Shown in pieces: positions 20,706 through 62,309 of a stretch of 64,000 nt of DNA (the stretch's first letter is position 1; each line of letters begins with the position of its first letter). The DNA comes from Crambe crambe (taxonomy: Eukaryota > Porifera > Demospongiae > Poecilosclerida > Crambeidae): the NCBI GenBank assembly GCA_963924555.1, contig OZ004586.1, positions 3,802,501-3,866,500 of the forward strand, in the 5' to 3' direction. A program made the translations under genes and the position numbers. Below the pieces are notes generated by a model. That model searched no databases. It was given only the letters and a program-made list of their open reading frames with translations, and had not been told where the DNA came from.

Positions 20706-23054
20706 TTAGGGTTGGTCACTAGCTCGCTCATCATCACTCAAAAGACACTCCATTGAGTTATTCACATTTCTTAAAGCCATGGTAGAACCCATTAGGTCCA
20801 TGTACTCAGCCACAGCAGTTAATAGAGTAGACAAACGAATCACCAGCTCAGCAAAAGAAGGTCTGGACTCAGCACGCAATTCCCAGCATCGCATCATCAC
20901 AGAATACCTATAATGACCGAAACCAGTTAATGTGCAGCTTAATTTCTAGCTAAAAACTTACATTTCCTGATCACAAGCTTCATTGAGTGGTTTTTCCATC
21001 CTCAATCCCATCTCTAACTGGCGTGGCAGGTCAACTGGGTGAATCCCGGGGTAAGGGGTTTTCCCTCCACTGAAAATCTCCCAACATGTGACTCCATATG
21101 CCCACTGGAGTATTTAGAATGCATGGTCAGCTGTTTTTCATGGCTAACTAGCAGAGTAATTGTAATGGTATACGTATCATACTTACAACATCTGATTTTT
21201 CTGAGAACACTCCATCATTGATGCTTTCAGGGGCCAGCCACTTGATGGGAAGTTTGATGGCAGAGTCTTGGCCCTGCCTGAAGTATTCCTTGGACACATC
21301 AATGCTCTCAGAAAGTCCAAAGTCTGCCACTTTGATCGCAAGGTTAATATCAATCCTATAATTTATTAGTGCAGTAAGCGTGATACGTATAATACAATCA
21401 AGTAGCTAGTCCAAGGTGGAAATCATTGGCTTACGTAGTTATGATTCAATGAAACCATGTGTTAATCTCCACACAACAATTCAGTCCCTAATTATTGTAC
21501 TAGTGAGATACATGCATGAATACACTGTGTAAAAACCAGAATGTGTACTTTACGTATACCAATTCCCTGTAAACAGTACATGCAGGTATGCAGTTTATAT
21601 ATACGTACCTTACTGTTTACAGAGAGATGTGCAATACACACACTTTCATTTTTAGAGTGCATCCATGTATGTTTGTAGCTAGTGACCTTACATGCAGTTT
21701 CTGGCAGCAAGATCTCTGTGGATGACCCTCTTACTCGTAAGGTACTCCATTCCCTTACCCACTTGTATGCACATGTCAAGTAATCTCTTTCGAATATCAT
21801 CCTATAATAATGAGAGAAGATGATTAAATCACAAAAAATGATTTGTATCAGAGAGAGCATGCAGTAGCCAGCCCTCTCACTACTGTAATTTGGAGTTTAT
21901 AATTTCATTAATTATTTGATGTGGTGTAGTTAACTCTATCTCACCATATTTTCATTGCTGGATTCGACTATAAGCAATTCCCTCTCCTCCTTGAGGTATG
22001 ATAAGAGACTCCCATTGGCCATGAAGGGCATGATGATGTATGGGGCGGGGCCTCCATCCAGACACACCCCTTTTAGTGTAAGAATATTAGGGTGGTCAAA
22101 TTCAGACATTCTGGCACATTCCCTGAGGAGATCTGTTACTAGTTCTTCCTGCACAAACCCTACAAAGATAATTATACAAGCACACTTTGATCAGCTACTG
22201 TCACATGAGGATCTTCACTGCTACTGCATCACTGAATTAAGCTCATGCTTACCTTTGAGGATCTTCACTACTAGCTACTGCATCACTGAATTAAGCTCGT
22301 GCTTACCTTTGAGGGTCTTTACTGCTACTGTATCACTGAATTAAGCTCGTGCTTACCTTTGAGGGTCTTTACTGCTACTGTATCACTGATGGTGTCATTG
22401 AAACCATTCCTGATAAATCCCTTGTAGACAACTCCAAATTCACCTACATACCAACGAATGCATGCATGAATGCAACGTCCTCAAAGCTAATAAATTGATA
22501 TTAGCTATTAGCTTCAATTAAAAATCTGATTATGTTCTTTAGTTAGCTATTTTGAAATAGCTACATACTTGTACAAGTAGCTAGCTATTAGCTCTCATAA
22601 TTTTTTAAGTGATTTGGCTATCTCTTTGTAATCGTTGATACAATAAGTTATCTTGAATCAAGAATAAAACTTGTTACTAATAGCTACTGCATGTGACAGT
22701 CCTAGGTAGAAATCAAATATTAGACACATTGATTCTTGGCCACTTTTCCATACTTTAGCTGTCCATAACTTGTGACTACTAGTGACCTAGGTCTTGGAAT
22801 TTGCTATAGAGATGGTTCAATCGTTATGGAACACATGACAGAAGTTTGGGACAATTTTTCATTAAGCTACTTAAAAAAGGGATAATATTCAATTTCTACC
22901 TTGGATTCTCAGACATGCATGATAAAATAAACTCGTTTCCTCACACCTTGTCCAAGGGTTTTCCCAAGTTTGAGGTTGCACGATGGAATGATCAGAGATT
23001 TAGGAAGATTATGCTTGAAAGAACTTTGGACTGTGATGTTCTTCAAGTTAATTG
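20706..23054 (-). other. RTK-A tyrosine kinase domain and tail
   Basis: The glycine loop spans two exons (LGQG, then EFGVVYKG). VAVKTLK holds the ATP-binding lysine, and [17 protein letters not shown] the helix-C Glu. HRDLAARN is the catalytic loop of receptor tyrosine kinases and VADFGL the DFG motif. The activation loop has one Tyr (KEYFRQ), then [11 protein letters not shown] and [12 protein letters not shown]. The pattern is nearest the Met/Axl group (inferred by eye). All catalytic residues are present, so activity is expected. The tail has AEYMDLMG, a possible SH2 docking tyrosine. Confidence 0.92.
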
Positions 23055-61900: not shown

Positions 61901-62309
61901 ATACAGCTATCAAACATTCGTCATGTATAATATTGTACTCTGATAAATGGATCCCAAGACTTCTATAAAGAGTTGAAATATCCAAAAAATGGATGCATCT
62001 AGTACCTTGAACTATCATATTAAATCTTACACTTCTATCACGTATACTTCTGATTGACATCTTGTCCCATGTTAAAATAATCACACTCTGCAATTGAGCT
62101 CTGGCAAGGTCTGGATTTGATGGCATGATCATGTCCGCGACTCTGTCCAGAACCGAATTCTCTGATGTTGTTCTGTAAAATAATGATCCTTTATTGAAGA
62201 GAGTCCAGAGTGGGGCTATGACAGTGCTATTGACTCCATTATTGTCTGAGAACAATTTGGGCACACCTGAAAGGCATTGTCCGAAAGAAATGAGGCCATT
62301 AAAAGATAC
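40985..62309 (-). CDS. RTK-B: receptor tyrosine kinase with NIDO array (31 exons seen, 5' end missing)
   Basis: Exons 5' to 3': 62309-62031, 61766-61568, 61356-61285, 61156-61032, 58535-58251, 57791-57602, 56015-55875, 55690-55569, 55460-55173, 54967-54760, 54645-54508, 53942-53818, 52663-52373, 51800-51587, 51173-51030, 50701-50571, 50444-50169, 50058-49854, 48110-47976, 47926-47810, 47681-47565, 47073-46951, 46210-46054, 45926-45895, 45165-45067, 44657-44571, 43869-43646, 43295-43189, 41989-41821, 41439-41297, 41129-40985. The sum is 5088 bases (1695 residues) with matching phases. Domain order equals RTK-A. The signal exon and first NIDO exon were not found in 62310-64000 and probably lie further right. 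One donor (61567) is GC. The gene is a tandem paralogue of RTK-A; many transposon-like inserts lie in its introns, none in exons. Confidence 0.87.
42274..42408. mobile_element. TIR element (GTTAGACA ends) in RTK-B intron
   Basis: GTTAGACA at the left and TGTCTAAC at the right. The interior has inverted GGTTTCTAAA blocks and is GC-rich, unlike its surroundings. It lies between exons 43189 and 41989. Confidence 0.65.
43962..44060. mobile_element. Short TIR element (AATAGTTAGAACATGGGTG ends)
   Basis: About 100 bases. Ends match as inverted repeats over about 22 bases apart from a small indel. It is in an RTK-B kinase intron. Confidence 0.75.
45067..46210 (-). other. RTK-B transmembrane and juxtamembrane exons
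   Basis: Exon 46210-46054 carries the helix ([16 protein letters not shown]) and a basic stop-transfer HKSRSKK. Exon 45926-45895 adds [10 protein letters not shown]. Exon 45165-45067 leads to the glycine loop (LGKILGQG). Sequence outside the helix has little in common with RTK-A. Confidence 0.82.
46448..46627. repeat. G-rich tandem repeat (GGCAGAGGTAAGGGTTAGG type)
   Basis: Degenerate units of about 20-27 bases in the intron before the RTK-B helix exon. They include GGGTTAGGG but no regular telomere array. Confidence 0.85.
46951..48110 (-). other. RTK-B membrane-proximal EGF stalk
   Basis: A six-Cys linker (48110-47976, CITSAS then CGLNS) is followed by three EGF domains opening [18 protein letters not shown] and [11 protein letters not shown]. 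The exon 47926-47810 is almost identical to RTK-A 24999-24883. Confidence 0.87.
47246..47454. mobile_element. MITE-like element (CACTGTAAAAATGGGG ends)
   Basis: The left end CACTGTAAAAATGGGGTGTC is matched by the inverted CACTATAAAAACGGGGGTG at the right. GAAAATGACACC occurs in both arms. It is in an RTK-B EGF intron. Confidence 0.75.
48260..49515. mobile_element. Composite repeat element, copy 1 (TGTAGGGATGAC family)
   Basis: It starts with a hairpin of about 300 bases (48260-48559, arms of about 130 bases) containing GATGTAGGGATGAC. About 950 bases follow that are shared with 59996-60714. It ends in a small hairpin, GAGAGTGCTACCGCACTCTC. The last about 240 bases are duplicated in this copy (ends at about 49278 and 49515). 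No transposase is seen, so it is non-autonomous. Confidence 0.75.
50474..50566. repeat. (GA)n microsatellite next to an RTK-B splice donor
   Basis: On the coding (minus) strand it is a CT tract beginning five bases inside the intron after the donor at 50570. Confidence 0.95.
52764..53043. mobile_element. TIR element (GTTTCCTGTCCA ends)
   Basis: TAGTTTCCTGTCCA near 52764 and TGGACAGGAAAC near 53033 are inverted. The interior is GC-richer and holds a palindrome of AAGGGCGGGTCGATACGCCC type. It is in an RTK-B intron. Confidence 0.65.
53105..53713. mobile_element. TIR element, about 610 bases (ACATACCAAGTAGGAAAAA ends)
   Basis: ACATACCAAGTAGGAAAAAA at the left and its inverse complement at the right, 23-24 bases matched. 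No open frame inside. It directly follows the 52764-53043 element in the same RTK-B intron. Confidence 0.8.
54155..54250. repeat. Short direct repeat (CATGACATGTACACACAGTC)
   Basis: Two copies of about 45 bases, rich in ACATGT, in an RTK-B intron. Confidence 0.6.
56187..56950. mobile_element. Old inverted copy of the TGTAGGGATGAC composite element
   Basis: It begins TATCAGAGAGCGCGGTAGCG, then GTAGGGATGAC, which is the inverse complement of the right end of the copies at 49515 and 60714. Scattered similarity follows (near 56550-56620, with the ATGCGCATGCAT motif). The right border is not clear. Confidence 0.55.
57252..57515. mobile_element. Foldback element of the TGTAGGGATGAC family
   Basis: Arms of about 115 bases, from GTAAAGAAAAAAGCATTT through GATGTAGGGATGAC, inverted at the right. 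The inner sequence differs from the 48260 hairpin, but the outer motif is the same. Confidence 0.8.
59705..60714. mobile_element. Composite repeat element, copy 2 (TGTAGGGATGAC family)
   Basis: Same hairpin (59705-59995) and downstream part as 48260-49515, in the same orientation and also within an RTK-B intron (between exons 61032 and 58535). It lacks the terminal duplication of copy 1. Confidence 0.78.

Follow-up and report, generated by a model that had tools for sequence, protein, structure and literature searches.

The window analyzed here is a stretch of 64,000 nucleotides from the sponge Crambe crambe (positions 3802501 to 3866500 of contig C9, in a 143-Mb assembly of 119 contigs), and it carries on its minus strand two large genes, which we call A and B, coding for receptor tyrosine kinases (RTKs) with five tandem NIDO domains. 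Both combine these domains with EGF-like linkers, three EGF domains, a membrane helix and a tyrosine kinase, an architecture on which a Pfam scan and models built exon by exon agree. A preliminary description of this DNA had proposed two such genes; both are real, but the pair belongs to a larger set, as the contig has at least nine NIDO-bearing kinase genes, four in tandem (A to D) and five (E to I) 2.6 Mb away. We consider it fairly probable that A and B are intact single-pass RTKs of a lineage-specific, demosponge-type family, with an ectodomain of shuffled phase 1 modules that serves as an extracellular sensor. Gene positions are in window coordinates.

Architecture of genes A and B

The Pfam scan, run on models of both proteins lacking the signal peptide, found all three of the expected families. 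NIDO (PF06119) was recovered in five stretches of each protein, with 339 bits in A (E value of 7.8e-102) and 363 bits in B (3.9e-109), against a curated cut-off of 25; EGF families gave up to three stretches in each model, and the tyrosine kinase (PF07714) was found once per model, with 280 bits over positions 1 to 257 of 258 in A and 282 bits over positions 1 to 258 of 258 in B. With scores hundreds of bits over the cut-offs, the NIDO and kinase assignments are beyond chance. The catalytic motifs, including GxGxFGx, were read directly in both proteins and are intact, as had been described before, with the ALE form in B. The linkers that follow NIDO 2 to 5 align with one another and have conserved cysteines with EGF-like spacing.

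When the minus-strand frames of A (20.7 to 38.1 kb) and B (41.0 to 62.3 kb) are compared, their exons match in order, at identity levels that range from about 36% (a NIDO exon) to 84% (a kinase exon). The match has some irregularities, as one exon of NIDO 2 in B is most similar to NIDO 4 of A, and some short matches are off frame or out of order. Automatic exon prediction on loose paralogue evidence added spurious exons and was dropped for these two genes, for which we kept the exons with conserved cores and verified their phases singly. Both frames are open, in agreement with the first account, over 1753 codons with start and stop in A and over 1677 codons in B. At the local base composition, a stop-free run of 1753 codons has a probability of about 10^-53, a figure that is overstated, as splice sites were picked knowing the frame and the paralogues.

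Gene A (20706 to 39515) has 33 exons, with joints set one by one, and runs from a start ATG at 39515 to a stop ending at 20706, a single frame of 5262 nt (1753 codons plus stop) interrupted by 32 introns, all GT-AG, with a median length of 363 bp. The protein is thus shorter than the 1826 residues of the earlier model, and the in-frame ATGs at 39518 and 39527 could add up to four residues. A candidate signal-peptide exon (39458 to 39515), predicted from hydrophobicity and splice donor only, ends in phase 1 and is followed by NIDO 1 (37009 to 38234; exons a, b and c, with exon a diverged) and NIDO 2 (35144 to 36047). A six-cysteine EGF-like linker of phase 1-1 (34292 to 34423) leads to NIDO 3 (31336 to 33535), a second linker, interrupted in A by an additional intron (30466 to 30913), to NIDO 4 (28106 to 30065), and a third (27899 to 28039) to NIDO 5 (25345 to 27340). 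The last linker (25053 to 25187) precedes the three EGF domains, which correspond to three phase 1-1 exons (23916 to 24999). Next come the transmembrane helix exon (23514 to 23652), with a hydrophobic stretch that was read directly, a juxtamembrane micro-exon of 35 nt, placed by its exon joint, with a tyrosine in ENDSDY (23116 to 23150), and the juxtamembrane and kinase exons up to the stop (20706 to 23054). The NIDO, EGF and kinase segments come from the exon model and Pfam, and the linkers from the exon model and their alignment.

Gene B (40988 to 62309) follows the same domain order, with 30 exons in the window separated by 28 GT-AG introns and one GC-AG intron, and its segments were assigned on the same kinds of evidence. 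NIDO 1 is represented by exons b and c (61568 to 62309), with the GC donor after exon c, and NIDO 2 lies at 57602 to 61156. EGF-like linkers (55875 to 56015, 54508 to 54645, 51030 to 51173 and 47976 to 48110) alternate with NIDO 3 (54760 to 55690), NIDO 4 (51587 to 53942) and NIDO 5 (49854 to 50701), and the three EGF domains (46939 to 47926) are followed by the helix exon (46054 to 46216), a micro-exon of 32 nt with a tyrosine in ERIY (45895 to 45926), set by its joints, and the juxtamembrane and kinase exons (40988 to 45165). The preliminary description had ended the gene at 62309, but two 5' exons lie past the end of the window: the first exon of NIDO 1 (69723 to 69608) and a putative signal-peptide exon (70010 or 70013). 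The combined search for hydrophobicity and a splice donor placed signal-peptide candidates at 39515 to 39527 for A, at 70010 to 70013 for B, with a weaker one at 63102, and at 93710 for C.

Whether ectodomain and kinase belong to one gene depends on the joints across the helix. In both genes the phases are compatible at every joint from the last EGF exon through helix exon and micro-exon to the kinase exons. Connecting helix and kinase directly, as first tried, broke the phase and was rejected. The helix exon has a phase 2 end and the conserved exon after it a phase 1 start; this mismatch led us to the micro-exon, whose inclusion restored the phase in A and B. A tyrosine is present in the micro-exon of all six genes examined (A to F), in C by projection and in D, E and F by eye. 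The alternative is that ectodomain and kinase are separate genes lying end to end, with no NIDO receptor kinase at all, and the fact that we could not locate the helix exon in G, H and I speaks for it. However, the last EGF exon lies just 263 bp (A) or 722 bp (B) from the helix exon and matches it in phase, and NIDO exons lie upstream of kinase exons on the same strand in nine of nine genes, so we regard two separate genes as most improbable. The phase-compatible joints, together with the same order in neighboring paralogues, support a predicted single polypeptide of ectodomain, membrane helix and kinase, as was first proposed.

The NIDO kinase family and its kinase relatives

The other two genes of the tandem array lie near 74.6 to 93.7 kb (C) and 95.5 to 113.9 kb (D), and the exon order of A and B recurs in both, through projected B exons in C and through exon prediction in D, where the helix was recognized by eye. 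The second cluster, genes E to I, is found on the plus strand at 1.156 to 1.220 Mb of the contig and is more varied in its modules. In gene E, a single NIDO and three EGFs are combined with LDLa modules, which Pfam confirmed in three joined reading frames; gene F has a NIDO, an LDLa-like module (below the cut-off, with 16.7 versus 24.1 bits), another NIDO and three EGFs. Upstream of the kinase, G, H and I have two NIDOs, EGFs and multiple SRCR domains, and for G Pfam confirmed SRCR in a single reading frame. The structures given for D to I come from exon prediction and are not curated.

Both NIDO and kinases of this kind are common in the genome, with at least 159 NIDO matches (150 of 211 candidates scored) and at least 200 kinase matches (131 of 1361 candidates scored); NIDO loci other than those described here were checked only by position against the kinase matches listed. 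One locus (C13, 2643 to 2663 kb) carries, on a single strand, NIDO exons followed by transposon-like sequence and then by frames of FN3-like, EGF-like and kinase type, about 17 kb apart, and could be a further NIDO receptor kinase. The nearest kinases outside contig C9 (C13, 2877 to 2903 kb) are accompanied by FN3-like frames, identified by eye, and by a repeated domain; no NIDO was seen there by eye, and the 127-aa stretch of the repeated domain that was tested had no Pfam match. A different kind of array occupies the minus strand of C14 (838 to 888 kb), where about 16 NIDO domains alternate with Calx-beta-like repeats (one checked with Pfam), together with Ig-like and FN3-like frames, a helix and a short tail with the motif YEDIITNAAYN. 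We saw no kinase there by eye in reading frames of at least 60 aa, and the array is possibly a NIDO receptor with another output.

The region beside gene A (2.0 to 18.9 kb, plus strand) apparently contains two tandem genes for adhesion-type G protein-coupled receptors with Ser/Thr-rich stretches. For the first copy, three exons (6193 to 8306) were compared with Pfam, which confirmed GPS and 7tm_2 domains; for the second, two ectodomain frames (213 and 186 aa) matched no Pfam family at E values up to 0.01. Long CT/GA dinucleotide tracts occur in this region (15.3 to 15.7 kb), in the NIDO 5 region of B (50.4 to 50.6 kb) and inside genes G, H and I.

To place the kinases, we used a tree of 26 hand-picked rows, made of six of the nine kinases of the family (A, B, D, E, F and G) and 20 of 243 database proteins. 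The six C. crambe kinases fall together (support of 100/96) inside a group of 19 rows (99/97), whose other 13 members are demosponge kinases with SRCR, ADAM, Ig, PSI/IPT, Sushi or mixed ectodomains. The tree is midpoint rooted, with 12 of its 23 inner branches starred and 5 drawn open, and the rows for MER, Oscarella and MET sit on long branches, among which we claim no order. This grouping, together with the number of NIDO kinase genes on the contig, supports the earlier suggestion of a lineage-specific sponge system.

The closest known relatives within the group differ in their ectodomains. The SRCR kinases of Amphimedon (P0005 and P0006, named DMBT1-like, and P0009, uncharacterized) and the ADAM-bearing P0007 have kinases 50 to 55% identical to those of C. 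crambe and grouped with them, and the SRCR module type is shared with genes G, H and I; one SRCR and one ADAM kinase of Amphimedon are close neighbors in the tree, on branches of 0.08 and 0.12. Their ectodomains, however, are of the SRCR or metalloprotease/disintegrin type, and NIDO is not among their listed Pfam domains. Halichondria and Ephydatia kinases (P0010, P0011, P0018, P0019, P0022, P0026 and P0032) belong to the same group, with 47 to 51% identity in the kinase among those in the tree, but their ectodomains have PSI, IPT or both, in some cases along with SRCR or Sushi, and no NIDO is listed for them either.

Among solved structures, the nearest kinases are AXL, MER and MET, ranking after a tandem EGFR construct (357 bits over two domains, 177.5 each), and MET and the TAM receptors (AXL, MER and TYRO3) are the most similar single-domain kinases, with about 200 to 232 bits. 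This similarity could mean that A and B belong to a known class of RTK, as orthologues of MET or TAM whose ectodomain became unusual in one lineage. We think this very unlikely, as the C. crambe kinases join the 13 demosponge rows, the only MER row and the only MET row fall outside that group (under a midpoint root and on long branches), and a grouping with the one long-branch MET row was not seen. MET and TAM ectodomains also differ from the NIDO chain. Pfam found neither the MET family domains (Sema, PSI and IPT) nor those of the TAM family (Ig and FN3) in A or B at E values up to 0.01. MET receptors have been reported in Bilateria, according to the available part of one study (PMC6374515). 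The best reading of these comparisons is that the kinase is probably part of a demosponge radiation of MET/TAM-like RTKs that is already represented in databases with other ectodomains.

Selection, assembly and possible role of the ectodomain

Genes B and C are near-copies, with 86 to 100% identity in matched exon stretches, and their comparison, with the exons of C projected from B, was used to measure selection. Gene C has no stop in 1667 aligned codons. Over the ectodomain (1284 codons), the rate of synonymous substitution (dS) is 0.107 and that of nonsynonymous substitution (dN) is 0.039, with a dN/dS of 0.37 (Fisher p of 3e-11 on rounded counts); the kinase part (324 codons) has a dS of 0.049, a dN of 0.015 and a dN/dS of 0.30 (Fisher p of 0.007 on rounded counts). 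Both genes are under purifying selection in ectodomain and kinase, and no positive selection was found between B and C on the ectodomain as a whole. NIDO 3 and NIDO 4 are conserved (dN/dS of 0.10 and 0.22), and NIDO 5 and the EGFs change faster (0.63 and 1.08), with neutrality not rejected for either (Fisher p of 0.11 and 1.0).

These values also bear on whether decay after duplication or an artefact of assembly could account for the copies. B and C do stem from a recent tandem duplication, and the intron before exon b of NIDO 1 is about 7.3 kb long in B (62.3 to 69.6 kb) versus about 1.9 kb in C, with much of the excess sequence having no blastn match in C, which suggests that, since the duplication, B has gained an insertion or C has lost sequence. 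Against decay stand the absence of stops in C and a dN well under dS, and the A and B proteins differ by about 15 to 65% in matching exons and are both still open, so we give this explanation hardly any credence.

The exon phases are consistent with a modular origin. Each NIDO of A is coded by three exons with phases 1-0, 0-0 and 0-1, which together form a phase 1-1 unit, and B agrees within the window; linkers and EGFs are also of phase 1-1, apart from the extra intron in one linker of A. Modules of phase 1-1 are the class described for animal exon shuffling in a text whose available part does not include NIDO (PMC8001218). We propose that such modules, namely five NIDO domains, EGF-like linkers and three EGFs, were shuffled onto a MET/TAM-related kinase. 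The resulting extended, repetitive chain would bind a repetitive extracellular ligand, such as matrix, mucus or a particle surface, and binding would cluster the receptors. Clustered kinases could then phosphorylate each other and the conserved juxtamembrane tyrosine, creating docking tyrosines from which SH2 proteins may relay the signal.

A ligand of the matrix or particle class is plausible by analogy, as the proteins known to us with this domain are matrix or mucin proteins. Nidogen and tectorin, which share NIDO with genes A and B, are matrix proteins not known to have an intracellular kinase, and MUC4 is a mucin with NIDO and likewise not known to have such a kinase. The presence of NIDO in MUC4 is also mentioned in the accessible text of PMC5354666. 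The SRCR-bearing sister genes and the tandem arrays would instead favor a role in recognition, with receptors that read microbes, food particles or self/non-self and gain diversity through duplication and module swapping. Such a repertoire would fit the nine genes in two tandem clusters, the LDLa and SRCR modules added in the second cluster, the treatment of SRCR as a pattern-recognition domain in sponges (in the parts available of PMC8242945 and PMC4772301) and the faster change between B and C in NIDO 5 and the EGFs. However, the overall ectodomain dN/dS is low, NIDO 3 and 4 are conserved and the faster parts are not significantly off neutrality. We therefore hold a recognition repertoire to be unlikely, if worth keeping in view, and give the matrix or particle sensor the edge over it.

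Several observations weigh against our preferred reading of A and B as intact receptors with a sensor ectodomain. The placement of exon boundaries drew on the frame and on the paralogues, the search by hydrophobicity and donor detected no signal-peptide exon for D, and the helix exon could not be located in G, H and I. No solved structure matched the NIDO profile among PDB sequences at E values up to 1, and the predicted structure of NIDO was poor (mean predicted local distance difference test score of 58.5), with no fold match at E values up to 0.001. The evidence for selection comes from the B-C pair alone, and four projected boundaries in C (the donors of exons 2b and 5b and the acceptors of the helix exon and the micro-exon) fall off splice dinucleotides, so the true exon ends of C appear to differ slightly from those of B.

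A broader, more tentative possibility, to which we would give somewhat less than even chances, is that one MET/TAM-like kinase chassis acts as a socket in demosponges, on which NIDO, SRCR, LDLa, EGF, FN3-like, Ig, PSI/IPT and ADAM modules are swapped within each lineage. The combinatorial receptors so formed might read matrix, particles or self, and the NIDO genes would be the solution of one lineage, with a repeated nidogen-like rod as the sensor.

The pairing of NIDO with a receptor kinase

Animal RTK families are recognized mostly by an ectodomain and a kinase that are conserved as a pair, and we searched databases and literature for the pairing seen here. A protein search with the kinase covered 7953 candidates with lengths from 0.55 to 1.75 times 1733 residues, a range in which shorter models would be missed. 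The precomputed Pfam domains of the best 120 of 4546 matches include no NIDO, and the sponge kinases among them have other ectodomains. A search with the NIDO ectodomain returned three proteins at E values up to 0.001, none of them with a kinase, and database searches of this type are weak for NIDO. A profile of the whole segment from NIDO through EGF and helix to the kinase was uninformative, as it was swamped by EGF repeat proteins, and was discarded.

The literature search found no NIDO-bearing RTK, sponges included, within a scope that left aside subscription papers, supplements and preprints; among the matches listed for NIDO and RTK, the titles concern MUC4 or unrelated matters. A paper on Oopsacas mentions NIDO without kinases in the text available (PMC10280926), and the accessible text of a study of the holozoan tyrosine kinome describes ectodomain shuffling in RTKs without using the word "nidogen" (PMC8662651). 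The closest precedent is the receptor repertoire of H. panicea, where the legend to Figure 1 lists NIDO and TyrKc among receptor domains; the legend does not say that both are in one protein, so an earlier sighting is possible (PMC8242945). As predicted from the gene models, the combination of NIDO with an RTK seems to be new among the matches found, which does not imply its absence elsewhere, and the kinase radiation itself was already known.

This sponge family pairs an RTK kinase with a type of ectodomain that was not found on RTKs in the literature or in the database matches listed, and in sister genes a kinase of this kind is joined to other modules. The NIDO kinase genes are a compact case of phase 1-1 module shuffling, and they make it directly testable by what means sponges, with their many receptor kinases, sense matrix, microbes or neighbors.

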